From Candidatus Cryosericum hinesii (GTDB taxonomy: Bacteria; Caldisericota; Caldisericia; Cryosericales; Cryosericaceae), in assembly GCF_003570985.1 (NCBI RefSeq), contig NZ_QXIW01000033.1, positions 1 to 64,000 on the forward strand: DNA of 64,000 nucleotides. The letters are read 5' to 3'. Below, one piece after another: positions 3,798 through 49,993 of the stretch. The notes beneath the pieces were generated by a model that was not told where the DNA came from, did no database searches, and worked only from the letters and a program-made list of their open reading frames with translations. Numbering within the stretch: the stretch's first letter is position 1; every line of letters begins with the position of its first letter. The translations under genes and the position numbers were made by a program.

Positions 3798-3989
3798 TCA
3801 CCCGCACACGGAACACGCTTCGTTTAAGAACCACACAGCTTCTTCCAACAGTTTAACCCTCACCGCGTTCTCGTCTTCTGATGACCTCACTTCAAGCAGG
3901 AGCAGGTCAAGGGCCTGTTCTGCTCGGGACCATGCATCCTCGTACAGGCATATACTCATTAGGCTTTTGCTCATTGGACCTTTACTCAT
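3798..3989 (-). CDS. Small helical hypothetical protein
   Basis: 63 residues from an ATG at 3989 that overlaps the last 8 bases of the prim-pol gene. GAGAGGTG precedes it, inside the prim-pol coding end. The sequence (DAWSRAEQALDLLLLEVRSS ... LEEAVWFLNEACSVCG) is predicted to be largely alpha-helical and ends in a CxxC-like CSVCG. The overlap suggests translational coupling with prim-pol. Function unknown. Confidence 0.5.
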   Translation of the reverse strand: MSKGPMSKSLMSICLYEDAWSRAEQALDLLLLEVRSSEDENAVRVKLLEEAVWFLNEACSVCG

Positions 3990-5193
3990 TTGTATCACCT
4001 CTCCCCTCGGCGTCCGCCCAGAGCCTCAACTCTTGCAGATGTTCACGAGCACTCTTGACTGCCCGTCTGTCCACGTTGCAGGCCTTGGCCGTCGACGCAT
4101 CAGACTTGTACCCCATCTTGGTTGTATAAGACCACACAAACCACTCAGGTGCTGACAACCCTTGCTTCAGAGCTACGCCAAACCTTGCAGTTATCTTCGC
4201 GTCCCCATGCGGGCAGTCCTCACAGCGGACCCAGGGCAAAGCGTCACGCGTGAACCGACAACCTACGGGACCGTGCCGGTTCTGCGCCTTGTCCTGCTCT
4301 AACCCCTCGTGAATGATCCTTTCAACCTCTGCAGACTTCAGTGGTGGTTTCAGGGTTTCGTTTTTCCAGTAGAGAGCCTTTTCTACTTGTTCTGGGTCAT
4401 TCCTCAGCGTACAACCGCGCTGCCAGAGAACATATAGCGCCACTTCCCGTTCACCTGGACCGTTGCTGTCCGGGGCTTTCAAATCGCGTCCCCAAATCTG
4501 CTCAAGGCACAGCCGACCATTCGACCTGAATGGCAACGGTTTACCCCGTAGCAGCGTGTCCCCCCGTGATGTTAGTCCCCTACTGGTTTGCAGCTCCTCA
4601 GTGATGAAAGCGAACGCTGGCAAGCGTTGAAGGTGATCCGGACCTAGCCTGGGCTCAAACTCGTACACGCGTCCGCTCGCATGAAGTCCGGGCGGGGCGA
4701 CTATAAGCGCATCAGCACCCTTGAACTCGCACGTTGTACCGTCTGGCAAGTGCAGCGTTCTGACTGTGGCATAAGCGCCAGCTGTACCCAAGAACCAAAG
4801 GTGGAACCCATGCCCTGTTCTCACTGTCGTTGTGTTACAGGCACTGAGTACGTCTGGCACATGGTCACACCAATCGAGGTCCAGAACGTACAGGGCATTG
4901 TCTGGGTTAACGCTGTTGCGTCCCGTGAGGATCCCAGGATTGAAGCCGGGCCCACCAAATTCAGTACTGTAGTCGGCAAACCACTGCAGCTGCTGTTCGA
5001 CAGACGGGTTGCTGGTTCTGTACGGCACATAGTGGCCGTGCGTGTCCTGCAGGGCTGCTGACAGAGGCTGTTTTCCGTCGTACTCTTTGCCCGTGGTGCC
5101 GTCCACGCCCGGCAAGTGCAAAGGGATCCAGGGCAGCGATAGGTTGCCACCGTACTCAGTTACCGCGTCCTGAAGCGTCAGTATGCGAGACAT
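3982..5193 (-). CDS. Primase-polymerase (prim-pol) replication protein
   Basis: 403 residues from the ATG at 5193 (GAGG eight bases upstream). The first half matches archaeo-eukaryotic primase superfamily prim-pol proteins of plasmids and phages. YVLDLDW carries the metal-binding acidic pair, TGHGFHLWFL is the His motif, and EFKGADALIVAPPGLHASGR is the third motif. Residues about 215-300 resemble the PriCT-type helical module (WQRGCTLRNDPEQVEKAL, NETLKPPLKSAEVERIIHEG). A Cys cluster (VRCEDCPHGD) and a winged-helix-like end (DASTAKACNVDRRAVKSARE) follow. It would prime and copy DNA during replication of the element. It lies near DnaA boxes and an inverted repeat. Confidence 0.85.
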   Translation of the reverse strand: MSRILTLQDAVTEYGGNLSLPWIPLHLPGVDGTTGKEYDGKQPLSAALQDTHGHYVPYRTSNPSVEQQLQWFADYSTEFGGPGFNPGILTGRNSVNPDNALYVLDLDWCDHVPDVLSACNTTTVRTGHGFHLWFLGTAGAYATVRTLHLPDGTTCEFKGADALIVAPPGLHASGRVYEFEPRLGPDHLQRLPAFAFITEELQTSRGLTSRGDTLLRGKPLPFRSNGRLCLEQIWGRDLKAPDSNGPGEREVALYVLWQRGCTLRNDPEQVEKALYWKNETLKPPLKSAEVERIIHEGLEQDKAQNRHGPVGCRFTRDALPWVRCEDCPHGDAKITARFGVALKQGLSAPEWFVWSYTTKMGYKSDASTAKACNVDRRAVKSAREHLQELRLWADAEGRGDTNE

Positions 5194-5409
5194 GTCGCGC
5201 CTCGTTCTTCGAGGCCATCGAACGCAGGTGAACAACCTAGATTCTGCTTCTGGAGGGTCGCACGATGACGGACGGATCGACCGCCACAGTCAGGCGCCGA
5301 AGCGAACCCCTGCCCAGATTGCCCTATGTCCTTCCACTTCGCTTCTCTTCTCATCGACAACCAATGTAGCAGGGCAGTCGATGCACGATATGGAATGAAG
5401 TGTACTACG

Positions 5410-15559: not shown

Positions 15560-16006
15560 ATGAGAAAACCTGTTGCCATCAATGAACAAGGGAAGCCACC
15601 AACCATGGCAGAGCTGCTGGAGCAGGCAGGTGATGCTCAACAGTGGTGGGGGGCGATAGCCGCGTTCCTCGTCGACTCGTACCGCGTGCGTGCTACGGTG
15701 CGGTGGGAGTCTCAGTCTAGGGCTTGGGGAGAGACCTACTGGAAGGGCTCAAGCCCAGTCGTACACATCGTACCCTGCAACGGACATCTACTAGCGTTCA
15801 TCCCCTTCAGAACCGCTGCGGTGAACAGGGCGACCACGAACCCCGGACTTCTCGATCCTGCTGCACGGACTGCGCTCGACAGCTACGTTGCTGGAGAAAG
15901 TCCTATGCCCGTTGTCTGTGTACGCTCAGACGTAGACGTAGATGCTGTCATGCGCCTGGTGTCGCTGGCTCATCCTCGAAAAGGTCATCCGTGCGGTTCC
16001 CTGTAG
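15560..16006 (+). CDS. DUF3788-like protein, end overlapping brxL
   Basis: 148 residues. The region WWGAIAAFLVDSYRVRATVR through a Trp/Gly-rich strand (SRAWGETYWKGSSPVVHIVP) to CNGHLLAFIPF resembles small DUF3788-type proteins in layout. That is a tentative match. The ribosome site is poor. The last 20 residues are read from DNA that is also the 3' end of brxL on the opposite strand, with a tail-to-tail overlap of 59 bases. The C-terminus may be an artefact of a lost stop. Confidence 0.45.
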   Translation: MRKPVAINEQGKPPTMAELLEQAGDAQQWWGAIAAFLVDSYRVRATVRWESQSRAWGETYWKGSSPVVHIVPCNGHLLAFIPFRTAAVNRATTNPGLLDPAARTALDSYVAGESPMPVVCVRSDVDVDAVMRLVSLAHPRKGHPCGSL

Positions 16007-17453
16007 AACTGCCAGATGGGTCCCGCTTGACAGTGATGTCTGGCATTTCCTCCCTGAACTCGCTGTCGACAAGATGGGCCTGACGCCTTATGATCGCACG
16101 CTTCTCCAGTGCCGGCTGAAGACAGTAAAGGTCGAAGTCAGCAGGGGTGATGTCTTTGCTCTTATGTACGTTGGGAAAGAGCAGACGGAGGTAAGCAGCA
16201 CATAGGCGCTTGACCGCAGTAACGTCACGCGTGTCTGCTTTTGTCGGCACAACGAGCATCTCCCCTACCACAACATCATAGTCGGCAACGCTTCGCAGTG
16301 CGTGCAGTACTTCTGAGAAGTACTCAACATTGAGCGTATATCCTCTGACTTTGAGATTCTCCTGTATTCGAGGAAGATACCACCCCTCAATGAAACCATG
16401 GAATCTGTCCAGTAGCGCAGATTCACGAAACATGGGTGGCAGGTCCTCAAAGTAGTGACTGTTTCGAGGGCGCAGATCGGAGGTCAAAGGAATGTTGCCC
16501 AAGAGAACGAACCCGGCATCAGCCTCCTGGCGCGATTTGCCGACAGTGAACGCGCCCGACTCAAGATAGTTCTTCATCGCCCCTGCAAGTTCGTCGGCGT
16601 CTGCGAACACGATTGTCGCTACTTCATCCATGGCGACATAGTCGTAGGACGTTACGATACCAGGGGAATTCTTTTGCATATCGTAGAAGAGCTTGGCCCG
16701 CGTGACGGTTCCGCCACTGATCAGCCATCCATACTTCGTGAGGTTGCCAAAGACGTATGATTTCCCTGTGCCCTTGGGAGCTAGTTCTACCATGTTCAGT
16801 CGTTGCTGAACAAATGGCAACAGCCGGGCAAGAAATCGGAGCTTCTGCGTCAAACCCTCAAAACCACCTGGATTGTACTCCATCGATTTGATCAACAAGT
16901 TCACCCATTCATCAACTGTAAACTTGTCCCGTGCCTGCCGGTAGTATTCGATGTCGACGTCATATGGCTTGAAAGGCTTGAAGTCAATGAGCTCGATATG
17001 GCCATCTTTCTTCCCAGTTGCGGTCGGTGCGATCCAAGTCAACTTCCCAACACCCCAAACCTCGCCACCCAGCAATTCACGGTGCTTATGCAGCAGAGAC
17101 GCATTGACGCTGGCCTCGTTTGCTTTCACGCCCAAATCAGGGATGGCCAGCCTGTAGCTTCCGGTCTTGACGTCAACTTCGACTACCATGCGCATCAGCA
17201 GTTGTACGTCTTCGCCTTTGGTCAACTGACCCTTGATCGTGTGGCTCGTCTCCTTGTCTGGTATATGCTCCTGAAGGAAGCGGGCGAGAGCATAGCCATC
17301 GACGCTCCCGGCGTCATCTGCGTACTTCTTCACCAGCCAGTCGCGTATGAACGACGGCAACGCCCTGCCTCCGAAAGCCGAGTAGTTCTCAGGGTTCTTC
17401 AGGACTGACTCATTCGGAAAGATCTTAACTAGTTTCTCATCCAGGGTATCCAT
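15948..17453 (-). CDS. brxL: BREX protein BrxL, short form (AAA+ ATPase)
   Basis: 501 residues. The ATG at 17453 overlaps the pglZ stop as TAATG. The N-terminal half includes SAFGGRALPSFIRDWLVKKY. An AAA+ core follows, with Walker A LAPKGTGKSY (about residue 224), then SGGTVTRAKLFYDMQ and Walker B YVAMDEVATIVF (about 274), and sensor-like VLLGNIPLTSDLRPRN. BrxL proteins are described as Lon-like and form DNA-binding AAA+ rings in BREX defence. Type 1 BrxL is near 680-700 residues. This one ends soon after the AAA+ region in a disordered acidic tail, and I see no Lon-type Ser/Lys peptidase region. It is the last gene of the operon. Confidence 0.9.
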   Translation of the reverse strand: MDTLDEKLVKIFPNESVLKNPENYSAFGGRALPSFIRDWLVKKYADDAGSVDGYALARFLQEHIPDKETSHTIKGQLTKGEDVQLLMRMVVEVDVKTGSYRLAIPDLGVKANEASVNASLLHKHRELLGGEVWGVGKLTWIAPTATGKKDGHIELIDFKPFKPYDVDIEYYRQARDKFTVDEWVNLLIKSMEYNPGGFEGLTQKLRFLARLLPFVQQRLNMVELAPKGTGKSYVFGNLTKYGWLISGGTVTRAKLFYDMQKNSPGIVTSYDYVAMDEVATIVFADADELAGAMKNYLESGAFTVGKSRQEADAGFVLLGNIPLTSDLRPRNSHYFEDLPPMFRESALLDRFHGFIEGWYLPRIQENLKVRGYTLNVEYFSEVLHALRSVADYDVVVGEMLVVPTKADTRDVTAVKRLCAAYLRLLFPNVHKSKDITPADFDLYCLQPALEKRAIIRRQAHLVDSEFREEMPDITVKRDPSGSSTGNRTDDLFEDEPATPGA

Positions 17454-19834
17454 TAGAACAACTCCCTTTCTGTCATGCCTGCCTTGACAGGAATCATCCA
17501 TGTCACAACAACAGTCCCGACTGCAACCGTAACGCTGACAGACCCAACCGCATCGTTCGGCAGCTGTATCCGCCAGGTGCCATCGGCTGAGTGGCTAACG
17601 TGAATGTCTTTCTGACCTACCGTAACCTTAGGAGCAGAAAGCGGCTCAGGCGTTACTGTAAACACCACCTGCCGCGACGTCTCGGCACTCTCTTCGACTA
17701 TCTGCTTGATTTCGTACTGCTTTTGCACCTCGTCAAGCAAGCGCACGATGAAGGATGGAACGAGCACTTCCTCGGGAGTTGCGCCTCCATGAGCGAGATG
17801 TGTGCCTATTTGGTACAGTGAGCTGTAACCAAGAGAAAGTGCCACAGGTCCAGATCGCAATCCTTCCTGAGGCAGCACATCGTGAACAAGAAAGTCGGAG
17901 CATGACTTCTCTGCTTTCGCAAGCCAGGCGCAGCGTCCTTCGTGCTCTTGGCCCTCCATGTTGTACTTGCTCAAGGCAGCCACAGAGCGGGAAAAGACAG
18001 TCAGCCCGTGGTCGGCCAGCACCACCGTGCCCGGCTGAGCCATCTGCTCCTCAACGGCGGTTCCCATGACTTCCAATTCCTCAAGCAAGGTCTGTGGATA
18101 CTTGTAGGGAGCTTTGTGGGCGACGGCATCCGGACTCTTGTCGATACCGACCACCCCAGAACCGAATCGGTTGAACTCGGTGGTACTCGGCAGTTGCGCT
18201 GCCATCGGAGCCAGGTCGGTTACGTCCAGACCACGTCGGTGGAGCTGACGTGTGATGAATGGTACCCATTCCCATCCCATGCCATCGACCATGAGAGCTC
18301 GCGTTCCCTGCGCCAGTAACCCCTCGGCTGTTTCATGTTTCCGTGCTGCATAGTACCACTCGTAGAATGCTCTCTCGTCAGTATTGACACGCGCCAGCTC
18401 TGCTCTTAAAGATTCACTCGGCATGTCAACCAGGCAACAAGCCCTGTACTCGTTGAAATATGCGTTCACCCACGAAAGTGGCTCCGAAAGTCCGCTGATA
18501 TTGAGGGGAGCCGCGTAGTCGTACAAAAGGGGGAACGCATGCTCGACAGCGTCAAACCACAGATCCCGAGGAACCGTTGCATCAGCGAACAAGAGTACGA
18601 ACTGAGCGCGTTCCCAGGGAGTTGTGTCTGTGAGCACTCTCATCCGCTCCGATGGCGGCAGGCCCGCCAGACCCCTCTGCAACTTCTCCGGCAGCTCCGT
18701 AGATTGGCCTGCAGAACGCGTTAGCACATCTAGGTGATCCCTTCTCTCTTTCAGCCGTTCCGGCGTGCGGTCGTCCTTTTCACCAATGGCACCACTCAAC
18801 AACGCAGACATCAGCGCTGCCGAGTCCAATTCCTCCAAGCTCCTCATGCACTTCGCCAAGTAGCTGTAAGGAAAGAGTGTGCAAACGCCGACACGCAATA
18901 GCCACCGAGAGTACTTGTCTGACGCACTGGCGGGCCAGTACTTAAGGCACCCAGTCAGCCCAAACTGTGCCACATTGAACCTCTGACAAAGGGTGTTCTG
19001 AAGACGCGGCTCTGACGCCACCTGCATGTCTTCCACAAACTGCCTCCAGAGGTCCACATCCTGATTTCTGAATGACACCGGCACATCGACGCCGAGAACG
19101 TCACGCAGGTATTTCTCGTAACCCGACACGCGTGATATGTTCACTGCGGAATCCGGAAATACGTCCTTTGGGGCCATATCATACAGGTCGGCAACCATCT
19201 GTGAGGACACAAGAACAGCTGCCATCGGCTCACCTTGCCATAGTGACAAGAACTCCTTGTAACTGTTAATCCTACGAGCTGCCGGCACGTCGAGAGGTTG
19301 TCCGAACAGCACGACCTTGAGCACACCGCCGATCTGTTGATCAATCTTCCACACGGAGGGCCATAATCCGCTCGACTCACGGTTCGCCTTGTTCCAAAGC
19401 AGCTTCTGAAATCGCTCATGGAGTCCGGCCAAAGGAATGTAGAAACGGCGCCCTGTCCGGTTTTCGCCATGATTCTCGCACTCTGTAATGCCTCTCATGA
19501 GAGCCTCGAAATCCTCGTCCGACTTGAATCGCAGCACCTCGGACAGTCCAGTGATCACCCACGACTGGTCCCCTGCCTCACATTTCTGCATGAGACGCAA
19601 GACGTCATCACTGGTGATGACACTCTCAGCTTCGCGTTGCTCGCTAGTCACGTCCACTACGTGAAACTCTTCTCCCAGGCAAGACCTCAGCTCAGTTTCG
19701 ACCGGTTTCAACCCCCACAGCGTCGGTACAAACACGAATCGCCAGGGATACCTGAGGTCTCCTCCATTCTCACTTAGCAGATCCTGCCGGATGACCAGCG
19801 CCAGATCCTGAACGCTACCTATGGTCCTGCTCAT
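17453..19834 (-). CDS. pglZ: BREX protein PglZ (alkaline-phosphatase superfamily)
   Basis: 793 residues. I chose the start MSRTIGSVQDLALVIRQDLL, which overlaps the end of brxC by 20 bases. The C-terminal half carries the PglZ-domain metal motifs: LMVDGMGWEW near residue 515, VLADHGLTVF near 608, and HLAHGGATPEEVLVPS near 681. The N-terminal half (FVFVPTLWGLKPVETELRSC onward) is typical of the BREX-specific extension. The last 80 residues look like an Ig-like beta domain. PglZ is the universal marker of BREX systems and is required for defence, though its exact substrate is unsettled. Confidence 0.92.
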   Translation of the reverse strand: MSRTIGSVQDLALVIRQDLLSENGGDLRYPWRFVFVPTLWGLKPVETELRSCLGEEFHVVDVTSEQREAESVITSDDVLRLMQKCEAGDQSWVITGLSEVLRFKSDEDFEALMRGITECENHGENRTGRRFYIPLAGLHERFQKLLWNKANRESSGLWPSVWKIDQQIGGVLKVVLFGQPLDVPAARRINSYKEFLSLWQGEPMAAVLVSSQMVADLYDMAPKDVFPDSAVNISRVSGYEKYLRDVLGVDVPVSFRNQDVDLWRQFVEDMQVASEPRLQNTLCQRFNVAQFGLTGCLKYWPASASDKYSRWLLRVGVCTLFPYSYLAKCMRSLEELDSAALMSALLSGAIGEKDDRTPERLKERRDHLDVLTRSAGQSTELPEKLQRGLAGLPPSERMRVLTDTTPWERAQFVLLFADATVPRDLWFDAVEHAFPLLYDYAAPLNISGLSEPLSWVNAYFNEYRACCLVDMPSESLRAELARVNTDERAFYEWYYAARKHETAEGLLAQGTRALMVDGMGWEWVPFITRQLHRRGLDVTDLAPMAAQLPSTTEFNRFGSGVVGIDKSPDAVAHKAPYKYPQTLLEELEVMGTAVEEQMAQPGTVVLADHGLTVFSRSVAALSKYNMEGQEHEGRCAWLAKAEKSCSDFLVHDVLPQEGLRSGPVALSLGYSSLYQIGTHLAHGGATPEEVLVPSFIVRLLDEVQKQYEIKQIVEESAETSRQVVFTVTPEPLSAPKVTVGQKDIHVSHSADGTWRIQLPNDAVGSVSVTVAVGTVVVTWMIPVKAGMTERELF

Positions 19835-22800
19835 CCCGTCCGTCTCCAAGCAATTGCTCGAGAGCCACCCATCCGTTTGGCACCCTGTCAGCCATCTCAA
19901 CCAGCAACTGCTGGGCTTCCGATGCCGACCGATGCATGACCTCCTGACGAATCCTGTCCTTGAAGTCCTCAGTCGCATGTAGAATGGGGGGACTCTCTTG
20001 AAGGGCAGCACGCGCCTCCTCCTCCCGGCACATTGATGGATCGCTGGTACTGATAAGCAGCGATTGGTACGCTGCAGTCGTGGTCTCTAGTGATGGGGCG
20101 ACTTTGAGGCTTCGTGCGGCCCACGCGCCAAATGCTGATTTCAGGGTTTCAGGGGCGATGGCATCTTTGACTTGTCCCACGCCTGCCTCCTCTATGGTTT
20201 TCAGAAGTGAGTCGGCGTCCACAGCCTCAATGGAAGCCGATCCGAGGAATTCCTGAACGACTTCTATCGCAGCACGCAGGCTAGGGTTTGTAGCTACAAC
20301 GGCGGCGACAAAAAGTGGGTACTTTCGGCTACGTACCGCCTCTCGCCCAGCCAACTGTATCATGGCCAGATCCTCTGACGGAGTTACATCCAGAATCTCA
20401 CTGATCCTGATCGCAACCACTGAACTCGTCTTGGTCGGCGGTGGCGGGGCTAGTACATCGAGTATCTTCGCATGAGCCAAGCCTTCGGGCCACACCGAAG
20501 GTGAGCCTGCCATCCTTTGGCTCAATTCGCCATAAAGCCGTTCTGCCGAGTCGGCCGACGGCGGGTCAGCCGAGAACTGCGACAACCACTCTCCAAATCC
20601 ACTCTTGAGGTTCTCCTCGCTCAACATCGATTTCAGATCCGCGGTGACCGGATCCAGCGTCTGCATGAGTAGCTGCATGTGGCTCTCATCCACATCAGAC
20701 TGCGTCATCTGCAGAAGGGCACTCAGAGCATCAACGGCATCGCTAATGTTGACCGAACTCTGTATATATTTGAGCGACCACAGCGGCCTGCGTCGCTGAT
20801 CGATCCAAGTACGCAGCTGCCCTCTTGCATCCATGAGCGTCCCAACGTCCGAGAGCCCAAAGACGCTCTTGAGCGATTGGACAAGATGCTCCTCTGTTTC
20901 CGTCCCAAACTGGACTTCAAGTGACTCTCTCCCCTTGCCAGTTGACCAGTATCTAAACAGGTCCTCCACGATGTCGCGCATGGACAGCACCCCAATGCGC
21001 CTGCCATTGGCGTCGTAAAGACGCTGTCTGTATGGTCGGAGAGCAAAGGCAAGTGCTGCACTGTGAAGCAGGTTCTCATACAGGCCGTATGGCGCAACTG
21101 ACAGGTCATGCAAGCTGTCTCCCAGATTGAAGGAGGCCACCTTCTTGGTCATCGGCTCCAATGCTGCATGAACCGCCAGCGACAAGCGTCCGATGGGCTC
21201 CTGTTCGGCCGATTCGGTCAATTCAAGGCGCTGATCAACCACATATGAAGAGCCACTCGAGTTCTTGAAGATACCCAAAACCTGTCTCTGTACGCCAGCC
21301 AGATCCCTCCATAAGTCATCCAGCGACTCAGCCTGGAGCGCCCTCTCTGCAATCTTCTTCCCCCCTCCACCCCAACACGTCTTGGGGATGCGCTGCACGT
21401 CATCAAACCCGTTCTTGAACACTTGTTTAGCGCAGTCCTGCAGCGCTGCAGGCAGAACGCTGCAGCCAACGGACGCTATGGCCCCTGCCATGTAGACGTT
21501 GTATTGGCTGGCGCTGCCGAGTTGCGCCATCCAGCCGGCCACAAGGTCATCGGCCATCTTGTCATATTGACTCTGGACATTCGTCAGCGAATGGTGCTCT
21601 GCGACAGCGGCACGTCCACGGTCATTAGCCAATTCATGCAGCCTCTTCGAGCCGATCGGGGTGAGAGCCTCGAGAATAATCAGCGCAGGGTCTGTCGCTG
21701 TCGCTCGCCGACTGTACTCCAGGAGCTGATCGGTTGCTCCAGCCACATCCTCATCCTTTGCATAGAGAACTACCGCCACGTGAAGTCTCGAGGCGTCGCC
21801 AAAGCCCAACTGATCTATGGTTCTCTTGTGGAACGCCGCCGCATGTGCTCCGGCGTTGAAGAAGCCAAATTGCACTTCGCGCAGCACGCTTGATCCACGG
21901 TATTTTTCCTGCAGCTCATTCCTCTTCCCGTTGTCGAGCACCGAAACAATATCCTCACTGAATTGCGCCGCCAAGCGATCGACCTCGCTTCGGACGTCTT
22001 CCTCTGGTAGAGTGGCCCCATACATGACCACGTACTCGGCGCCCATCTTGTGAAGCGCTCCCTGTTCTTCCAGGAATCCAAGTTCCTCCGTCGCGTGACC
22101 CTGCAGGGCCGTCCCTGTAAACATGGCTTCGCAGTTGTCGGCTGTGGGTGCCACCAGTGAAGTCTCAAGGCTGTCCGAATGGCCAAGATATGCGTACAGG
22201 AAGTTCAGCAGTAGCATACTCTTGAGAACCATCAAGCAGTTCTTGCCGCGAGTTTCAACGACCGCCTGTCGCTGATTAAACACCGTGTTGACAGCAAGAA
22301 AATCGTCCGCCTCGTCGACCGCCAGCGTGGGCGCAAAGTAATCCCACAGAGCATCTGCCGTCAGCCACTGCTGACCGTTTTCGGGATTGACCTCGATGAA
22401 CTTCTTAAATCCCTTCTCACCATCGTGCAAGAACATGAAGATGCTCCTGTCTGATGAGCCAATGTGATGCGAGATAAGTGTCGCCAGATATGCGGTGTAT
22501 GGGTGGATTGGAAACAAGCCGCGAATGTCGTCACGCATGTTCGCTGTGCCACCGACATCCAACCGGTCAACCAGAGCGTCGAGGTCACCATTGCCAGAGT
22601 ATGCCCGCGACACCAATTTGGCATAGGCCGAAGCATCCTTACGGAGTATGGCTGTCGATAGGATCCTGTAAACAGTGACGTCGGACATCGAATAGTCGAC
22701 CATTTTGAAACGATCATCGATCTTCCGCTGGTCGTCAGCATTCAGAGCGAACTGGCCCGGTTTCCGATGACTGATGATGACCATCTTGAGTCGAGACTCA

Positions 22801-23633
22801 GTCTGGCAGAACTCGGCCAGTCTCTGCAGTGCAGCTGCTATGTCCTGAGCGTGCGTCAGCTCAAGGACAGACGTGAATTCATCCCAGTAGATCATCACCC
22901 CTGAGTACCCAGCAGCTTCTGTCAGTGCACCATCGAGAACCTGCGTGAGCCACTCCGTCAATGAAGTTGCGCCGACGTACGCATGCCCCTCCTCAGCAAA
23001 GTAGTCTTCGAGTGCCTCCAGCGTTTCCTTGTCTTGTGTCTTGAGTCGATGCAGCAAGTCCTTCGCTCCGCCAGGAGCATAAACCCTCAGTTGACTGCTG
23101 TTCCGTATGACTGCATCCCAGTCCATGCTAAATGGGTTGCTCTCGATGAGGGTAATGAACCGATCGAAGTCACTCTGGGCGTCAACGCACAAACCAAAAG
23201 ACTCGAGGCCGTCCTTCACCGCTATCTGGACAGCCAGGTCAAAGGTACGAGAGCTGTGAACGAGCGGGGCTCCTGATCCATAGAGGTAGATGGGAGCGAT
23301 CCGATGCTTCTCGCGGAAACTTCTGACGCGGGCGGACAGCTCGGGCTTCATACGAGACAGGAACTGCTCAAGGTCAGCGACATCGTCGTCAAGAAGATGC
23401 GAAATGACGGACGCGGCATGGCTCTTCCCCGTGCCGTACGTTCCCTGCACCCACACAGGCCTCTGCGCTTTTGGCTCTAACGATTCGAAAGAGTCTATGG
23501 TCTTTCGCAGCAAGTTCTCGAAAGGTTCCACAGTGGGGATGAAAGTGGACCATGCAGCAGACTTGTCACCATCAGCGAGCTTGAAAACAGGATCAAAATG
23601 CTTGTCCAGTTCAACGATATCAGCGTACTTCAT
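19815..23633 (-). CDS. brxC: BREX ATPase BrxC/PglY
   Basis: 1272 residues, close to the usual BrxC size. Its ATG overlaps the upstream stop as ATGA. A P-loop ATPase domain begins early: FKLADGDKSAAWSTFIPTVE, Walker A QGTYGTGKSHAAS (residues 64-71 core) and Walker B VMIYWDEFTSVLEL (about 246-258). The long C-terminal part is helical, with SLDDLWRDLAGVQRQVLGIF and similar. BrxC is a core BREX component of the DUF499/DUF6079-like ATPase group. It probably works with PglZ in sensing or remodelling DNA. Confidence 0.93.
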   Translation of the reverse strand: MKYADIVELDKHFDPVFKLADGDKSAAWSTFIPTVEPFENLLRKTIDSFESLEPKAQRPVWVQGTYGTGKSHAASVISHLLDDDVADLEQFLSRMKPELSARVRSFREKHRIAPIYLYGSGAPLVHSSRTFDLAVQIAVKDGLESFGLCVDAQSDFDRFITLIESNPFSMDWDAVIRNSSQLRVYAPGGAKDLLHRLKTQDKETLEALEDYFAEEGHAYVGATSLTEWLTQVLDGALTEAAGYSGVMIYWDEFTSVLELTHAQDIAAALQRLAEFCQTESRLKMVIISHRKPGQFALNADDQRKIDDRFKMVDYSMSDVTVYRILSTAILRKDASAYAKLVSRAYSGNGDLDALVDRLDVGGTANMRDDIRGLFPIHPYTAYLATLISHHIGSSDRSIFMFLHDGEKGFKKFIEVNPENGQQWLTADALWDYFAPTLAVDEADDFLAVNTVFNQRQAVVETRGKNCLMVLKSMLLLNFLYAYLGHSDSLETSLVAPTADNCEAMFTGTALQGHATEELGFLEEQGALHKMGAEYVVMYGATLPEEDVRSEVDRLAAQFSEDIVSVLDNGKRNELQEKYRGSSVLREVQFGFFNAGAHAAAFHKRTIDQLGFGDASRLHVAVVLYAKDEDVAGATDQLLEYSRRATATDPALIILEALTPIGSKRLHELANDRGRAAVAEHHSLTNVQSQYDKMADDLVAGWMAQLGSASQYNVYMAGAIASVGCSVLPAALQDCAKQVFKNGFDDVQRIPKTCWGGGGKKIAERALQAESLDDLWRDLAGVQRQVLGIFKNSSGSSYVVDQRLELTESAEQEPIGRLSLAVHAALEPMTKKVASFNLGDSLHDLSVAPYGLYENLLHSAALAFALRPYRQRLYDANGRRIGVLSMRDIVEDLFRYWSTGKGRESLEVQFGTETEEHLVQSLKSVFGLSDVGTLMDARGQLRTWIDQRRRPLWSLKYIQSSVNISDAVDALSALLQMTQSDVDESHMQLLMQTLDPVTADLKSMLSEENLKSGFGEWLSQFSADPPSADSAERLYGELSQRMAGSPSVWPEGLAHAKILDVLAPPPPTKTSSVVAIRISEILDVTPSEDLAMIQLAGREAVRSRKYPLFVAAVVATNPSLRAAIEVVQEFLGSASIEAVDADSLLKTIEEAGVGQVKDAIAPETLKSAFGAWAARSLKVAPSLETTTAAYQSLLISTSDPSMCREEEARAALQESPPILHATEDFKDRIRQEVMHRSASEAQQLLVEMADRVPNGWVALEQLLGDGRDEQDHR

Positions 23634-24490
23634 TGATAGCCCCTCCTCCGCGAATACTCCTTGACGACATCACAGGCATCCTTCTCTGCTTGAATCGAGA
23701 ACATGACCCTCTTTCCTTCCCGGCGCTGGGTCAGCAAGCCGGGCAACCAGAGGGAGAGCAACTGGTGCTCCGCTGTGGATCCGTCGATTCCCAGCGCCAT
23801 GCATGGGCCGTACGGTAGTCTGGCAAGCTGATCCTTATCGATGGCCAACATGCTGGACACGTCTGACGCCCTATACAAGCCATAGAGAACCACAAGCGGA
23901 TCGACCTCCGTCGGTGGTGTGCGGGTCCACAATCGACGCCCATACGCTGGCACTCCTCCAATACCTAGCTGGCCCCAGGGCGTGTTTCGGAATGAATCCT
24001 CCAGCGACGATGCCGCACCTCGGTCCAGGCTATCAACGGTGTTGTCCCCACACAAATACGAACACAGGGGTTCGACAAGTAGCGTCACGGTGGGACCCTG
24101 CCTGGTCAGCATGTTCCAGCTCATCGCACCCAGCCATGCACACGACAGGTTGATCCACAGCGCGTACCAGACAAACGGAGATGACACACCCTCATGACTC
24201 AGGACTGGCAATAGAGCCGCCCCTAATGATGTCACACTCCTCCGATCCATCAGACCCACCAGGTCGAGACACTCCAGCGCGCCAGACAATTCACCCGTCG
24301 CCTCGTACTCGCGCATCTTGTGTCGGTCGACAAGCAGGTCGAGGTATCGGGACTGGAAACCTCTCTGTCCCAGTACACCACCCCTTCGGAAGTACTCTTC
24401 AGTCCTGGCTGCGGACACTCTGCGTGGTTCGGCTAGAGTTTGGAGGTCAGCATAGACTCGGCTAACAACTGCATTCTGATCGACCGTCAT
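23630..24490 (-). CDS. DUF4007-like protein, BREX operon gene 3
   Basis: 286 residues from ATG 24490, which overlaps the previous stop as ATGA. The core (FQSRYLDLLVDRHKMREYEA, then FVWYALWINLSCAWLGAMSW, then FRNTPWGQLGIGG and VLYGLYRASDVSSM) lines up with the 259-residue neighbour and with the C-terminal third of BrxP. The shared signs are W-x(3)-N at a helix start, TPxG-x(3)-G, a GR pair and LYxLYR. I infer a diverged DUF4007-like domain. The tail has KRVMFSIQAEKDA. Its place between brxP and brxC, with overlaps on both sides, makes it part of this BREX system. Confidence 0.7.
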   Translation of the reverse strand: MTVDQNAVVSRVYADLQTLAEPRRVSAARTEEYFRRGGVLGQRGFQSRYLDLLVDRHKMREYEATGELSGALECLDLVGLMDRRSVTSLGAALLPVLSHEGVSSPFVWYALWINLSCAWLGAMSWNMLTRQGPTVTLLVEPLCSYLCGDNTVDSLDRGAASSLEDSFRNTPWGQLGIGGVPAYGRRLWTRTPPTEVDPLVVLYGLYRASDVSSMLAIDKDQLARLPYGPCMALGIDGSTAEHQLLSLWLPGLLTQRREGKRVMFSIQAEKDACDVVKEYSRRRGYQ

Positions 24491-25266
24491 GATCCTCCTT
24501 GCTCTTCGCGTATCCATCTTTGGAGCACGATCTCCGGCGTCACCCCTGGCATGAGGTGAAGGTGCACCAAATCCTCTCCCTCTCGGCTGATAGAGCACAG
24601 ATCCGGTTGCCACAAGGACTCCAACGCCGTCGCAACCACCCTGTCATCCACCCCCAAGACCTGCGCTATGCGGCTGTGATTGTTGCTGTCCCGCGATATC
24701 ACCGCTCCTGTCGTAGGAGACAGCATCGCGATCGAATACAGCGCCCACCAAGAAACTGGCAGATCGGAACCTGTCTTCAGGATCCTCCAGGAACGTCCTG
24801 ACCTAACCACTAATCCTTGTCCAAGCGCGCCCCCTACTGGGGTTTGACGAAGAGTCGCTACGAGTGCAGCAAGTGCATCCCTAATACTTCGGTCAGTAGA
24901 TACGTGAAGTCTGTCTGCGAGCAGGACCAGACAACGGTCCCGAGTGTATTCGCCGCATGGCACAGTCGCCCACCACGAAAAGAGTGCAGACCCCAAAGAC
25001 CAGTTGGTCCAGATAACCTTCCAAGTGGCTGTAGAATGCGATTCTAGTGCCAGTCGGAGCAACTGTCCGGTTGTCGACAGAACATCGCCCACATCCCCAA
25101 CCAGGCCAGCATCGCGTAGGTAGCAGTGAAGCGCAACAAGCTGTTTGGGGCCAAGACTGTCAGGAACACTGCCGCCCTTCGCAAGGAGTGTCTCTACCCA
25201 GGTCTGGCGACAGCCAAACGTCAGATAGCGAAAAGCACCGTGCGGCTGGTCCCGGACTTCTAGCAA
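24487..25266 (-). CDS. DUF4007-like protein, BREX operon gene 2
   Basis: 259 residues, ATG three bases beyond the brxP stop. The start (AFRYLTFGCRQTWVETLLAK) matches the start of the BrxP C-terminal domain (SRYQTFGLRREWLDGLMIHG). Later segments also correspond: LRQTPVGGALGQGLVVRSGR against LKTTPLGDVYALGVAHGVGR, and LYSIAML against LYSLYRY. This is the xxFxxRxxW signature of DUF4007, a helical domain that accompanies PAPS-reductase-like DNA modification proteins. It therefore looks like a free-standing copy of the BrxP tail and may form a heteromer with BrxP. Confidence 0.75.
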   Translation of the reverse strand: MLEVRDQPHGAFRYLTFGCRQTWVETLLAKGGSVPDSLGPKQLVALHCYLRDAGLVGDVGDVLSTTGQLLRLALESHSTATWKVIWTNWSLGSALFSWWATVPCGEYTRDRCLVLLADRLHVSTDRSIRDALAALVATLRQTPVGGALGQGLVVRSGRSWRILKTGSDLPVSWWALYSIAMLSPTTGAVISRDSNNHSRIAQVLGVDDRVVATALESLWQPDLCSISREGEDLVHLHLMPGVTPEIVLQRWIREEQGGS

Positions 25267-25269
25267 GGT

Positions 25270-27669
25270 TCATTCCCTCCAGAAACGTTGGAGCGCCAAG
25301 ATCGCTGAGAGACCGCGCTCAAGGCTAATGTTATCCAATCCACCTAGTAGATCAACATGAGCGTAGCCTGCCGCTGTCGTTGTGCTCAATTCCCTGAGTC
25401 GAGCGATAAGAGCCTCGCGTGACAACCCAAACTCCTTCGCAGGTCCACCATTCGCCTCGCCGTTTACCAGCTGAGTTACAGTAAAATCGTAACTTCCGCG
25501 TTCTTCAGCATATCGATACAGCGAGTACAAGAGTACTGCGGCAGAAATGCTCGCACCCCCCAGCTTGCGAACCGATGATGAGCGCCCTACCCCATGGGCC
25601 ACACCCAGCGCGTATACATCTCCCAGCGGTGTTGTCTTCAATAAGTTTAGGAGTGCGGTCAAACCGTTACGAGAACTCCTGTTGTCCCCGCAAGTCGCCG
25701 ACAGCCGTTGATACAAGTCTGACGTCGTGTAATCACCTAGCGAAACCTCCGTCACGTACCAGCGCACTATCCCGGATCTGTGGGCCAAGTTGATGAAAAG
25801 TATGCCCCATACAGCACTTGGTGCGGTCACGTACTTCGACTGACAGAGCGCCCCCAAGTCGGTCAATTGGAATATGCCGCCTTTGGCTACAGACTCAATT
25901 AGCCCAGACTCTCTGAACCATACCACAGCCGAATCACGCTGGCGGTTACCCAAGGAGTTAGCCCCGATCCACTCGACACCGTGTATCATTAGTCCATCCA
26001 ACCATTCGCGCCTTAGCCCAAATGTCTGATAGCGACTGAATCCCGTATATGACTCCATACCTGAACCTCCGAGGGGCCTGATAGATGCTTGACTAGTGGA
26101 AAGAGACTTCGCCCTGAGACAGCCTTTGTCTACAAAAGTGAGACAGCGCCCGCAATGTTCGCAGCGTGCTTCATCAATGTGAACCAATGGGGATAGGCTC
26201 AGTGCCCCTGTCGGACACTGGACCGTGCAGACCCCACACTGCACGCAGTAGGCAGCTTTCGTAAGAGCTTTCTGAATCAGACCCGTGGCCTCGGGTGCAC
26301 TTGCCACCGCATCAAACGCGATCCTGCCGCCGGATGCATCAACCGACTCCCACTGTGAGAAATTGATCGATTCGGCTCTTGCTGCGATGGTTCCGCGACG
26401 AACACCATCATGCCAATCGCTGACAGAAAGAACTCCTACTGCCTTGAGCCACTCCAGAACCTCATTCTTAGAGCACCCCTTGATCGTAGCTCTTAGCTGC
26501 CCAGAACCCATTGTGAAGTCCACGCGTGATCCTTCACTGTCAATCCCTACTCCGCCACCTCGCTTCTTCCAATCCCCATTGTTGAGATACATATCCATAT
26601 CCGATTCTTGGGCTCCCTGCGTGGTGGCATAAGCCTCAAGAATTCTGCGATAGCCAGCAAGGACCTTGGGGTAAGCTTGCGCGATCACGCGCTCTGTCCC
26701 CGGACTGCTGAAAGGGCAAACAGCGCACCCAACACGAGCAAGACCGTCGCGGTATCCTTGGTTCACAATGAGAGCCCTCCGAAAGATGTGTAGGTAGACC
26801 TCGGTGCTGCTCCATAGCTGTATAACGCTCGCATTTATTTGCGTAAGACTCTTGCCGCCCGCCGTGATTCGTGCATAGGCACTCCGCCTCTGACTCTCAT
26901 CTGACCTGACTCCATCAAACAGAAGAACTCTGGCCTGCGTTCCATCGCCCTTGAGCTGCTGGAGAAGCCGCACGACGGGAGCCGATTTGTAGACAGAGCA
27001 GCACCATCTATGCATGCGACTGGGAGGGCCGAATTTGGACCACAGTTCGAGGGCCGGCGTCTCATGGCGTGCCGTGAGGAACTGAAGTTCAGGGAAACGC
27101 ATCCTGTACTCCTCTCGTACCCGCTCAACAGTCTCAAGCGTGCAAGGAAGCTCCATTGTCGTGTCAGTGAAAATGACCATGTACTGATCCGGGTGGAGCG
27201 CACGGCTGACAATGTCGAGGATGACCTGGGAGTCCTTGCCCCCCGAAAAAGCAACGACTGTGTAGTCGACACGCTTGCGAAAGCGGCGATACGTCTTGAG
27301 GACAAACTCCATGGCTTCGTTCTCAAGTGTCTCGAGGGTTGCCGAATTGCGTTCGAGCGTTGAGGCCACATCGATCGGCGCAAGCTTCAGCTTCCTCTTG
27401 CCAAGAAACTCTAGTGTCGGTGCACTGGTCATCCCGCCTCCATGCACATCAAGGACCGGATCACCTCGGTAGTAGTAGCGACGCTCTATTGCCCACAGCA
27501 GGGGTTCCTTTGACCTAGGGTACTTCCAGGTCTTCGACAGCCCTAGCAGATCGAGCTCCTCCCAGAACACGGGGCGTGGCGCACCCACGACAACGTCGGC
27601 CATGCCGGTCGGGAACGCTGGCGCGAGCAATACACCACCTGTCTCTCGGTCCCATCGAACACTGTTCAA
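25270..27669 (-). CDS. brxP: BREX type 4 PAPS-reductase-like protein BrxP
   Basis: 799 residues from a TTG start (GGAAGGGG upstream). Residues about 135-330 form a PAPS-reductase/DndC-like domain: FSGGKDSQ PP-loop at 141-148, VIFTDTTMELPCTLETVERV, the Cys pair MHRWCCSVYK (223-224) and GCAVCPF (315, 318), which could bind an Fe-S cluster as in DndC. Residues 475-517 hold two ferredoxin 4Fe-4S motifs (CVQCGVCTVQCP and CEHCGRCLTFVDKGC). Residues 545-799 are a DUF4007-like domain. BrxP defines type 4 BREX. Its relation to DndC suggests sulfur chemistry on DNA (phosphorothioation) in place of the usual PglX methylation. Confidence 0.9.
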   Translation of the reverse strand: MNSVRWDRETGGVLLAPAFPTGMADVVVGAPRPVFWEELDLLGLSKTWKYPRSKEPLLWAIERRYYYRGDPVLDVHGGGMTSAPTLEFLGKRKLKLAPIDVASTLERNSATLETLENEAMEFVLKTYRRFRKRVDYTVVAFSGGKDSQVILDIVSRALHPDQYMVIFTDTTMELPCTLETVERVREEYRMRFPELQFLTARHETPALELWSKFGPPSRMHRWCCSVYKSAPVVRLLQQLKGDGTQARVLLFDGVRSDESQRRSAYARITAGGKSLTQINASVIQLWSSTEVYLHIFRRALIVNQGYRDGLARVGCAVCPFSSPGTERVIAQAYPKVLAGYRRILEAYATTQGAQESDMDMYLNNGDWKKRGGGVGIDSEGSRVDFTMGSGQLRATIKGCSKNEVLEWLKAVGVLSVSDWHDGVRRGTIAARAESINFSQWESVDASGGRIAFDAVASAPEATGLIQKALTKAAYCVQCGVCTVQCPTGALSLSPLVHIDEARCEHCGRCLTFVDKGCLRAKSLSTSQASIRPLGGSGMESYTGFSRYQTFGLRREWLDGLMIHGVEWIGANSLGNRQRDSAVVWFRESGLIESVAKGGIFQLTDLGALCQSKYVTAPSAVWGILFINLAHRSGIVRWYVTEVSLGDYTTSDLYQRLSATCGDNRSSRNGLTALLNLLKTTPLGDVYALGVAHGVGRSSSVRKLGGASISAAVLLYSLYRYAEERGSYDFTVTQLVNGEANGGPAKEFGLSREALIARLRELSTTTAAGYAHVDLLGGLDNISLERGLSAILALQRFWRE

Positions 27670-27763
27670 TTCAGACCCCTTCCTTCAGACGGTTGCCGCT
27701 GCAACAAGACAAGATACACCTCAAAATCACTGCCAACACTGGTTGAGGAAACGCTGTTTTGTT

Positions 27764-27792
27764 AGTATACATCGGCAACGCGCCTGTTCAAG
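27764..27792 (-). promoter_or_regulatory. Promoter of the BREX operon
   Basis: On the minus strand TATACT (27769-27764) is preceded at 16-17 nt by CTTGAAC (27792-27786). The leader to the TTG start of brxP is about 88 nt and contains no obvious structure. The TATACTAAC form matches the promoters at 355 and 31497. Confidence 0.6.
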
Positions 27793-27855
27793 TACACGAA
27801 GTGAGTGGGAGGCACCGCAGGGGCATGCAAGAGCTGGGCCGACCTCACTCGGAGC

Positions 27856-29730
27856 TTACTCCATCCTTGACCTGACGTAGTCCGCAGTCTCCTTGTCCTG
27901 GAAAAAGACGTAGCAGCCCTTGAGGCCGCGGGTCAGTAGCACGCGGTACGTGTTCTTGAGTAGGTCAAGCAGCTTGCCTTTGGACCGCTTCACGACTCTG
28001 TCGTAGCAGGAGTCGGGCTGTGCTGTCCAGTCTTGCTGGGCAAAACGGTAGACCAGGTCCTTGCCGAAGATGACGCCGACATAGTCGAACTCAAATCCCT
28101 GCGCCGTGTAGACACAACCGACTTGGTCGATGCCGCTTGGTTCGTATGCCCAGAGATTCGACGACGGCACGCCAGCAGGAAGGCGAGCGGTCTCTGGACG
28201 CGCGTTCCACGGCCGGCTGTACCCGTAGTCATCGATGTCCACGTCCTTCACGAGGGAGCCGTGTCCATCAAGCTCGCGCGACCACGGCCAGCAGAATCCG
28301 GCAGTCATGCGCCCGGTGTGGCCCTCCGCCACCTTCGCACGGATGGCATCTTCAACCTTCTGTGGAGTGTCCATGATCTGGAAGTCAAAAGCATCCTCGT
28401 GGGACCATAGGGTGTTGGCAGTCCGCTTGACGCGCAGGGTATTCTCGACCCAGGCCACAAATGCCTCAGAGCCCGCGCACCGGAACTGAGCCTCAAGGTC
28501 ATAGTCATGACACTCAATGCCTTGCTCACGGGCACGCTGGAGGATGAGGTCCGAGGAACCAATCTCGTCTGGACGAACCACCTGATCATCATCGATGAAG
28601 AAGACACCCACCCGTGCCGCGTGCAGCAGTTCATCGATCTGAGGCTGGTCCGTCCTGCGTGCCCTCGGCGTGTAGAGGCTGTTGCTGTTCTTCCGTATGC
28701 GGTGGGCCTCATCGCAGATCAAGACATCGATAAGGTTTGGCTCGGCGTCCATGTAGCTGTTGAAGTACTTGAATAGCGCACTTCCACGACGGCCGATGAT
28801 CTCGCGGAGCGTCGTCGTGAAGGACCTGGAACCAGTCGCGTACTCTGTCCCGATTCCCGCTTTGGCAAGGTCGGCCATCAGGTTGAGTGCTATCACGGAC
28901 TTACCCGTCCCGGGTCCACCGCGAACGACGATGACGGTCTTGTGTTGCTGTCCTACCGTCTGCTGCGCTACCGCCATGACCTTGTCAAAGACGACGCGCT
29001 GTTCATCGAGCAGGATGTACTGAGGCACACCCTTGATCATGGCGCTGACGTGGTCCAACAACTTCTTGCTGGGACGATACGTTCCGGCGTCGACGTGCTT
29101 CATGACCTCTGCCCCTTGCCCGGTCGAGAGCCTCTTCCGAAGGTACTCCTCGAGATGCGTCGACGTGACTTCTGTGAAGGCGGGCGCCTGCTTGAGGATG
29201 TCGGCGAACTTGGGCTCAAAGATGGTGTCATTCTTGCGTGGCCGATAGTTGTGCAGGTAGGCGCAGGATCCCAGCCGGACCGAGGGATTGCCGTAGAAGG
29301 CGGTGTCCGTGTCCTCCAAGTAGTTCTGATATTGTAGGACCTGCATGGAGGGGTGTAGCACCTCGCGCTTGGTGCCGCCGACCCATGTCACCACCTCATT
29401 TGCACAGTCCGAAGCCTCGCAGGATTCCCATTGCTTCAGCTCGACGATGACCGCATTGTCCCGCCGGTCATCATCCTTGCCCATGACCATGCAGTCGATG
29501 CGGCGCGAGGTCAGGGGCAGCTGGTACTCAATGGCCACAGCATGATCCTCGAGCCCTGCGTCCTCGAAAACACCAGCCAGTGCGGTGATGGAGTTCTCCC
29601 ACGCACCGACTTCCTCGTCCGATGGTTTGTATCCGTAGTAGCCGAAGTAGGACTGTTTCAGCTGCCCCGCAATACTGCGACGGGCCACATCGTCAAACAG
29701 TTGCAGCGTGCTGCCAGCGTAGAGCCTCAC
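27856..29730 (-). CDS. Nuclease-helicase fusion with DUF2075 (Schlafen-type) ATPase
   Basis: 624 residues from a GTG at 29730 with GAGGAGGGACTCA before it. Residues about 65-115 carry a PD-(D/E)XK-like nuclease signature: EYQLPLTSRRIDCMVMGKDD with the Asp, then AVIVELKQWE with E-x-K. From about 260 comes a superfamily 1-like ATPase of the DUF2075 family: Walker A VRGGPGTGKSVIAL, Walker B VLICDEAHRI, FIDDDQVVRPDEIGSSD, and the late motif VYTAQGFEFDYVGVIFG. Such proteins couple nucleic-acid unwinding to cleavage and are common in defence islands. It is the third gene of an operon with a TPR protein and an HExxH peptidase. Confidence 0.85.
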   Translation of the reverse strand: MRLYAGSTLQLFDDVARRSIAGQLKQSYFGYYGYKPSDEEVGAWENSITALAGVFEDAGLEDHAVAIEYQLPLTSRRIDCMVMGKDDDRRDNAVIVELKQWESCEASDCANEVVTWVGGTKREVLHPSMQVLQYQNYLEDTDTAFYGNPSVRLGSCAYLHNYRPRKNDTIFEPKFADILKQAPAFTEVTSTHLEEYLRKRLSTGQGAEVMKHVDAGTYRPSKKLLDHVSAMIKGVPQYILLDEQRVVFDKVMAVAQQTVGQQHKTVIVVRGGPGTGKSVIALNLMADLAKAGIGTEYATGSRSFTTTLREIIGRRGSALFKYFNSYMDAEPNLIDVLICDEAHRIRKNSNSLYTPRARRTDQPQIDELLHAARVGVFFIDDDQVVRPDEIGSSDLILQRAREQGIECHDYDLEAQFRCAGSEAFVAWVENTLRVKRTANTLWSHEDAFDFQIMDTPQKVEDAIRAKVAEGHTGRMTAGFCWPWSRELDGHGSLVKDVDIDDYGYSRPWNARPETARLPAGVPSSNLWAYEPSGIDQVGCVYTAQGFEFDYVGVIFGKDLVYRFAQQDWTAQPDSCYDRVVKRSKGKLLDLLKNTYRVLLTRGLKGCYVFFQDKETADYVRSRME

Positions 29731-48493: not shown

Positions 48494-49885
48494 CTACCTC
48501 AAGGGCAAGCCGTCACGCCGTCTAGCGAACAGGTTCTCGCGGTGATAGGCCAGATATTCCTTCTGCTTCGCGTTGAATCTGCCAACGTTCCGGTCGGTCC
48601 TGAGTCCCCACGTGCGCATAATCTCGCGCACAGCATCGTTCGCACAGAGGATCTCTCCTGCATCACTGAACGAGATCCAGCCACCATCGAACAACTTGTC
48701 GACATGTGGTGCAAACAGGAACCCGTTATTGGCATCAAGCCGTTCTGCATTTGATGAATCTGCCCAGGGTTTGATGTGGCTCGCTATCAGGAAGGTCCCG
48801 TCGCTCGTACCAGTAAGCCGACACTTGGTCTCGATCGCCCCCACGTTGAGACGGAATCTGCCTTGACCTTTGCGTGCCATGATCAACTGCTGCTTCTCCG
48901 TTTCCTCCATGTTCTGTGCCCACAGGTTCGCTTCCTCTTCATCTGCCTTGGCCTCTGACTGCAGGGAGAACACGGCGCCAGCTGCAGTTGGTCTTTCCTG
49001 TTGGACCAAGCGCAGCACCAATTCCCCCAATTCCGTCGAGATCGAAGCGAGATAGCAGCCTTGGTTGCCTCTCCCGTCTTGCTGCAGCGGTGAATGTCGG
49101 CGAGGTAGAAGCGGCGCGATTTCGTCCATGTGCGCAACTGGAGCGATAGGCGTCTCAAGGGGGGTCCACTCGATCGGGACAAGCCATCCGTTCCGAGCCC
49201 ACGCATCACCCGCCCTGCCGTATTCAGATGGTTTCTCCTGCTCTCGATGGTCGCCGATTGCCACGCCGACCGCCTTGATGACTCCTTGCGCATACGAGAA
49301 GACTACGTCACCGGCACGAACTCGAGTGAGGTTGTCGTATGTCTCATTCGTCGCACCATTGGCGTTCTTCTTTGGCGACCAGATGTAGCCTCCATTGAGT
49401 TCAGCAACGAACGTCTGCCTATGGTTCACCCACCAGTAGGATGGAGTGTCTGGATACGTCTCAAGCAACTCTACTGTTTCTGGCGTCAGGAGCCGCATGG
49501 TCTCGAGTTGTCTGCCATCGACATGCCCATCTACGACATGCAGTCGTGGTGCTGCTTCACTGACGAAGCGCAGTCGGTCTGCAATGCTCGTGAGATCCAC
49601 TTCATGGAGGAGTCTCTCGGTTCCAGGTTGTGCGATGATGTGCCAGGGGGCTTGCCAAAGGTCCTCGTTGTTCAAGACCTTCTTCGCTTCCTCATAGTTG
49701 GTGACCATTCCAACGACGATACGACCAAGAAGGCTCAGGTGACCCGGTGGGCGCACCGTTACGATCCAGACCGTGTCCCCCGGTTCCACCCTTTGAAGCT
49801 GACCGCCCGCGGAATGTCTCAGCGGTTCCCATTCCTGAGCGTCGACAGTCTTGGGTCTCCAATACGTCATGTAGTTCTTCGCCAT
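48494..49885 (-). CDS. EVE/PUA-like and HNH modification-dependent restriction endonuclease
   Basis: 463 residues from ATG 49885 with GGAGGATGAC before it. N-terminal EVE-like modules (MAKNYMTYWRPKTVDAQEWE, VEPGDTVWIVTVRPPGHLSL; then PSYWWVNHRQTFVAELNGGY, IWSPKKNANGATNETYDNLT, VRAGDVVFSYAQGVIKAVGV) would read modified bases. The C-terminal HNH nuclease has TKCRLTGTSDGTFLIASHIK, PWADSSNAERLDANNGFLFA and PHVDKLFDGGWISFSDAGEI. This matches type IV, McrA-like restriction enzymes that cut modified phage DNA. It heads a four-gene operon. A truncated second copy lies at 39.5 kb. Confidence 0.85.
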   Translation of the reverse strand: MAKNYMTYWRPKTVDAQEWEPLRHSAGGQLQRVEPGDTVWIVTVRPPGHLSLLGRIVVGMVTNYEEAKKVLNNEDLWQAPWHIIAQPGTERLLHEVDLTSIADRLRFVSEAAPRLHVVDGHVDGRQLETMRLLTPETVELLETYPDTPSYWWVNHRQTFVAELNGGYIWSPKKNANGATNETYDNLTRVRAGDVVFSYAQGVIKAVGVAIGDHREQEKPSEYGRAGDAWARNGWLVPIEWTPLETPIAPVAHMDEIAPLLPRRHSPLQQDGRGNQGCYLASISTELGELVLRLVQQERPTAAGAVFSLQSEAKADEEEANLWAQNMEETEKQQLIMARKGQGRFRLNVGAIETKCRLTGTSDGTFLIASHIKPWADSSNAERLDANNGFLFAPHVDKLFDGGWISFSDAGEILCANDAVREIMRTWGLRTDRNVGRFNAKQKEYLAYHRENLFARRRDGLPLR

Positions 49886-49993
49886 GTCATCCTCCACGGA
49901 TGCGACTAGTCACACACAACCTACGACACTCACACTGCTGCATCCAAAAATCTGGAGCCGCTCGATATGTCGAAGTAGAAACTCAGAGTCACA

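Follow-up and report, generated by a model that had tools for sequence, protein, structure and literature searches.

A type 4 BREX operon of Candidatus Cryosericum hinesii with two stand-alone relatives of the C-terminal BrxP domain

If a defence operon carries genes beyond the minimal set of its type, then these may be new components that set it apart as a subtype, or they may be relatives of parts that the system already has. This question is raised by a window of 64,000 nucleotides (the whole stretch of DNA analysed; NZ_QXIW01000033.1, positions 1-64,000) from Candidatus Cryosericum hinesii, the host MAG of which is 80% complete. A sequence-only reading had described here a type 4 BREX operon with no methyltransferase and with two extra DUF4007-like genes, and had suggested that it may be a distinct subtype.

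Operon layout and core proteins

Six open reading frames form a gap-free series on the minus strand at 15948-27669, in the order brxP-D1-D2-brxC-pglZ-brxL, where D1 and D2 denote the two extra genes. The features are as follows:

27670..27855, minus strand: intergenic gap 5' of brxP, 186 bases, candidate promoter region with TTGAAC-16-TATACT at 27791-27764
25270..27669, minus strand: brxP; TTG start, GAAGGAAGGGG upstream
24487..25266, minus strand: D1, stand-alone SspB/DUF4007-like subunit, 259 aa; TTG start at 25266; PADLOC PDLC02511, 6.9e-24
23630..24490, minus strand: D2, second stand-alone D protein, 286 aa; ATG start at 24490; 55.6 bits with a D1 HMM
19815..23633, minus strand: brxC, ORC/Cdc6-type AAA+ ATPase; ATG start at 23633; PADLOC BrxC, 1.1e-149
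17453..19834, minus strand: pglZ, type 4 form; start reassigned to ATG 19834; NF033445, 365.5 bits
15948..17453, minus strand: brxL, AAA+ Lon-like; start reassigned to ATG 17453; PADLOC BrxL, 8.1e-207

The order, position and contiguity of the six genes are thus as first read, and their junctions are tighter than had been claimed. The TTG start of D1 follows brxP after 3 bases and is preceded by GGAGG, and the D1/D2 and D2/brxC junctions are both ATGA overlaps, the ATG of D2 overlapping the stop codon of D1. The start of D2 was also reassigned, giving 286 codons from ATG 24490 to the stop in place of a 327-aa frame. Further downstream, brxC and pglZ overlap by about 20 bases, and pglZ and brxL meet at TAATG. 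The sole sizeable intergenic gap is that of 186 bases 5' of brxP, behind a helicase gene on the same strand; a promoter scan returned 5 promoter-like sites, versus 5.0 expected by chance, and so lends no support to the single promoter of the first reading. The helicase gene directly upstream (27856-29730, minus strand) encodes a Schlafen group 3 helicase domain protein (Pfam 9.2e-89; PADLOC PDC-S41 6.8e-22), no homologue of which adjoins the other type 4 loci.

All four core proteins were assigned by PADLOC and NCBIfam profiles, and the strong matches, including a type 4 model for PglZ, bear out the identification as type 4 BREX. BrxP (PDLC02510, 5.3e-239 across residues 1-793) combines a PAPS-reductase-like domain with an SGGKDS loop (Pfam PAPS_reduct, 8.5e-24), a two-cluster ferredoxin-like cysteine region, and a C-terminal SspB/DUF4007-like domain at residues ~545-797, the Pfam DUF4007 match of which (9.3e-6, 25.4 bits) is slightly under the cut-off of 27. 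The SGGKDS loop and all eight ferredoxin-like cysteines are retained, and they are invariant in an alignment with relatives. BrxC (PDLC02472, 1.1e-149) has the P-loop GTYGTGKS and also matches the SspC profile (1.7e-28). PglZ matches PDLC02542 (8.7e-62) and scores 365.5 bits with NF033445 (BREX_PglZ_4; cut-off 140), and BrxL matches PDLC02505 (8.1e-207), Pfam BrxL_ATPase (7.9e-115) and TIGR02688 (486 bits; cut-off 329). As had been claimed, no methyltransferase family of PADLOC, Pfam or NCBIfam is above cut-off among the operon proteins, the match of BrxP itself being marginal (0.0084).

The proposed relation of BrxP to DndC is likewise supported, BrxP being related to DndC/SspD. A preprint by Yuan et al. 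is said to have shown phosphorothioate (PT) formation by type 4 BREX. The same BrxP architecture has been given for type 4 BREX, which was called DNA-phosphorothioation based, with DUF4007 related to SspB (PMC12839542), and brxPCZL is one of three gene families for PT synthesis (PMC11931770). The suggested phosphorothioate link is therefore already in print, and neither the core genes nor their chemistry are new. The window shares with type 4 BREX the four core proteins, their order and coupling, the BrxP-DUF4007 fusion and the lack of a methyltransferase (PMC12839542), and differs in the two stand-alone D genes added between brxP and brxC. It also differs in that no cysteine desulfurase gene is present within the operon, a non-defining feature, as such a gene is reported in the locus for 56% of type 4 taxa and housekeeping enzymes can substitute (PMC12839542). 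In line with such a substitution, the MAG encodes two class-V aminotransferases outside the operon, which could supply the sulfur.

Given the homology of BrxP to SspD, of BrxC to SspC and of the D proteins to SspB (profiles and folds; PMC12839542), the locus could be regarded as an Ssp or Dnd system instead of BREX. However, this is extremely improbable: type 4 PglZ and BrxL are above cut-off, the BrxP and BrxC profiles far outscore those of SspD and SspC, and Ssp-type sequences sit outside as an outgroup in the trees. Additionally, SspB is a separate, unfused gene in SspBCD systems, and PglZ and BrxL stand in the place of SspE or SspFGH; no SspE, SspFGH effector or SspA desulfurase was found among the scanned operon and neighbouring genes.

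Relationship of D1 and D2 to BrxP

D1 and D2 match solely the C-terminal part of BrxP profiles in PADLOC (PDLC02511, 6.9e-24, and 4.4e-5, respectively), and neither matches Pfam, including DUF4007, at E values up to 0.1. Profile searches thus connect both with this one region rather than with unrelated families. Because BrxP already bears a fused DUF4007-like domain, D1 and D2 do not add a new component but are paralogous to an existing part of BrxP, its own C-terminal SspB/DUF4007-like domain. This domain family (hereafter D) also forms part of BrxP in 74 further loci, and in the loci read, free D1 coexists with the fused domain and does not replace it.

The AlphaFold2 model of D1 (pLDDT 90) has the SspB fold: in a Foldseek search against the PDB, SspB (6juf_B) is the top match, with an E value of 9e-6 and a TM score of 0.67, and the next match has an E value of 0.15. 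SspB is a triple winged-helix protein (PMC10853773), and such a DNA-binding architecture is also reported for BrxA of BREX types 1, 3, 5 and 6 and for DndG (PMC12839542, PMC10853773); neither BrxA nor DndG was recovered as a fold match of the D1 and D2 models, and their likeness to the D proteins rests on those two reports. The D2 model is weaker, with a pLDDT of 80 overall, at least 90 over 151 residues, and low values at residues ~121-160. Its best fold matches are again SspB (6lb9/6juf; E 1e-4, TM 0.54-0.56), which makes an SspB fold probable for D2; since the model was built from an alignment of D1 and fused-domain relatives, this match is not fully independent.

Within the family, D1 and the fused domain differ in a patterned way. 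Many family positions across the N-terminal two thirds are kept in D1 at 92-100%, and an LDNI motif near the C-terminus, in which D and N are found in 82% and 74% of fused domains, has 0% and 0% in D1. This pattern suggests that D1 is a specialised partner rather than a spare copy.

D2 has diverged much further. Its branch in the D-domain tree is 3.1, compared with 1.61 for D1 and 1.0 for the fused domain of the window, and several otherwise fixed positions are lost, so D2 may do something else. With an HMM of D1 proteins from other genomes, built without any sequence of the window, D2 scores 55.6 bits, versus 21 bits with an HMM of their fused domains, and it therefore most likely belongs, judging from sequence, to the free-D lineage, in which it would be an old and fast-evolving branch that has diverged strongly. 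A paralogue of the fused domain is disfavoured by these scores; the AU test does not reject it, and the exact placement of D2 in the tree is left ambiguous by AU tests. Over 170 residues, D1 and D2 are 28% identical in protein sequence, and their nucleotide sequences show no similarity, which rules out a recent tandem duplication and places the origin of the pair, by duplication or by a second acquisition, far back in time. Codon usage is uninformative for D2, as its signal is too weak in this genome, and no relatives of D2 were found among plasmids.

Two alternatives bear on these features. D2 could be a decaying duplicate without function, given its very long branch, its missing fixed residues, and the fact that D1 itself is broken in other genomes. 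Nevertheless, D2 has an intact frame of 286 aa with a strong ribosome-binding site and ATGA overlaps on both sides, well-modelled regions (the 151 residues noted above), and homology detectable over 210 residues, which make decay unlikely; the junctions and the homology also rule out a spurious overlapping frame. Alternatively, one or both D proteins could be autoregulators of the operon, that is, winged-helix repressors derived from the BrxP domain and acting outside the modifying machine. The winged-helix folds would suit this role, and the C-terminal part of D2 has a weak likeness to ArsR-type regulators (0.0072), with ArsR/SqrR-like proteins as secondary fold matches. However, DNA binding by itself does not discriminate between the readings, the whole-fold match of D1 to SspB is far ahead of that to regulators (9e-6 versus 0.15), and D1 keeps the family positions of its N-terminal two thirds; autoregulation is thus quite improbable.

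Distribution and ancestry of free D genes

Named genomes contributed 80 loci to the survey, and viral, phage and plasmid records contributed further ones; in addition, BrxP or D profiles were run against 1,385 genomes, a figure that counts repeats. Single-sequence scans of genome and viral collections with BrxP gave no matches, and an alignment query succeeded. A free D gene lies between brxP and brxC in 17 of ~101 loci with a readable junction, in several phyla; the window itself is counted, as are L072, where the fused domain was duplicated recently, and a few broken copies. The sample is non-random, as the search was deliberately directed at phyla that have a free D gene. In the undirected set, 6 of 80 loci have the gene, L072 among them. 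Free-D loci occur in Coprothermobacter, a Syntrophaceae, an Ammonifex MAG and members of their phyla, as well as in one further genome of the window's own class (G014). For instance, the loci of Coprothermobacter platensis (L076), Syntrophaceae UBA3084 (L011) and Ammonifex (L016) share the order brxP-D1-brxC-pglZ-brxL, and their D1 and that of the window belong to one lineage, although the window has two extra genes and these loci have one.

The claim of two extra DUF4007-like genes outside the minimal set is therefore borne out in that 84 of the ~101 readable loci have no free D gene, and qualified in that one such gene is a recurrent feature of type 4 loci across several phyla. Among the loci surveyed, the window alone has two intact free D genes; a second candidate (G756) was ruled out, since its two frames (111 and 81 aa) are one broken gene. 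It is D2 alone that makes the locus unusual, and "variant" fits it better than "distinct subtype", which is too strong. The single free D gene is already hidden in the PADLOC library, as model PDLC02511, which carries the label "BrxP", scores the free D gene of Coprothermobacter platensis at 2.4e-108; the library thereby conceals a free D subunit under the name of another protein.

In the phylum of the window, D proteins were found in 2 of 54 genomes, just the two with this operon, and BrxP was found in none of 14 congeners, which points to sporadic acquisition. At least two other genomes (G708, L268:12525-12941; G668, L269:10540-10830) have full-length BrxP, BrxC, PglZ and BrxL and a broken free D gene. 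These look like cases of loss under way or of assembly error, and D1 would be dispensable or in the course of being lost there.

In the D-domain tree, the free D proteins fall into two separate clades (95/99 and 100/100), distinct from the fused domains; the exception is L072, a locus other than the window, whose free D gene truly arose by recent duplication of its fused domain. The AU test does not reject a single D1 clade (p-AU 0.29). In the BrxP tree rooted on SspD, each of the two main clades contains free-D loci, which branch early, and the loci that lack the gene are mostly nested. The free-D label requires four to five changes on this tree, fewer than in any of 500 shuffles. As the D1 clades parallel the BrxP tree and the LDNI motif is absent, the simplest reading is that D1 is probably an ancestral subunit of type 4 BREX that was lost repeatedly, and the type 4 system of four genes may have arisen by reduction.

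Other genes are also found in the slot of D1. Ten type 4 loci (L009, L021, L022, L027, L028, L030, L042, L046, L048 and L089), the named ones mostly Bacteroidota, have a homologous gene of 139-155 aa there (e.g. L022:12514-12963). None of three representatives reaches the cut-off of any Pfam or NCBIfam family, nor does the single one compared with PADLOC match a model there, making this gene a candidate for an uncharacterised type 4 accessory subunit. Similarly, in two Prevotellaceae (L013:3618-4682 and L019:5823-6887) brxP is followed by a 354-aa gene that is RhuM-like by eye, in contigs that stop before brxC.

Possible roles of the D proteins and neighbouring genes

We favour, with moderate confidence, the reading that this phage-defence operon is a complete BREX system of type 4 (the phosphorothioate type) whose set of SspB-like DNA-reading subunits is enlarged, D1 and D2 forming hetero-oligomers with the D domain of BrxP. 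BrxP would introduce sulfur, drawn from a housekeeping cysteine desulfurase, into the DNA backbone, BrxC would serve as an ORC/Cdc6-type AAA+ ring, and PglZ and BrxL would perform or permit interference. D1, D2 and the fused triple-winged-helix D domain of BrxP would jointly recognise the targets. As SspB acts as a dimer, D1 (here also D2) would most likely pair with that domain in a similar way, as a hetero-dimer or oligomer guiding BrxP and BrxC, and a single machine would then read either several sites or one that is composite or asymmetric. SspB is a dimeric, DNA-nicking protein needed for PT formation (PMC7188994, PMC9240713), its dimer-interface residues are essential for function according to the passage of PMC9240713 that cites Xiong 2020, and a DNA-scanning role in type 4 BREX has been proposed for DUF4007 (PMC12839542). 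The location of D1 and D2 directly behind brxP, with the start of D2 overlapping the stop of D1, supports such a hetero-oligomeric reader, while the 84 readable loci that do without a free D gene, the loci with an intact core and a broken D1, and the strong divergence of D2 count against it.

Alternatively, D1 and D2 could be exchangeable specificity subunits, each giving BrxP and BrxC a site of its own, or one serving modification and another the sensing of foreign DNA. The presence of several D proteins in one operon, the missing LDNI motif of D1, and branches of D1 and D2 that are longer than that of the fused domain, as for changing target readers, would agree with this. However, neither protein has a catalytic or BrxP-like region, and a position right behind brxP suits co-assembly equally well, so we regard alternative subunits as conceivable but rather doubtful. 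Under the preferred hetero-oligomeric reading, a tentative extension is that type 4 BREX originated with two SspB-like readers, one fused to BrxP and one free, acting as a hetero-dimer; that most lineages lost the free one; and that a duplication here gave rise to a three-reader machine for composite or several sites. This can be likened to the swapping or adding of specificity subunits in type I restriction systems. Loci with zero, one and two free D subunits around the same BrxP-BrxC-PglZ-BrxL core form a series in which site choice is directly testable by PT mapping.

Several further genes lie in the window. More than 10 kb downstream of brxL are genes for a large serine recombinase with a Resolvase domain (408-2051, minus strand, 547 aa) and for a primase-polymerase (Prim-Pol) protein (3982-5235, minus strand), possibly belonging to a mobile element that bears the defence genes. 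An HNH_2 endonuclease gene (48494-49897, minus strand) is near a gene for an AAA_21/AAA_15 (OLD/AbiEii-like) ATPase on the same strand (50577-51971), and the pair is possibly a second defence locus. On the plus strand, 43300-46197 encodes a surface-type protein of 965 aa with divergent InlB B-repeats, fn3 and copper amine oxidase N-terminal domains.
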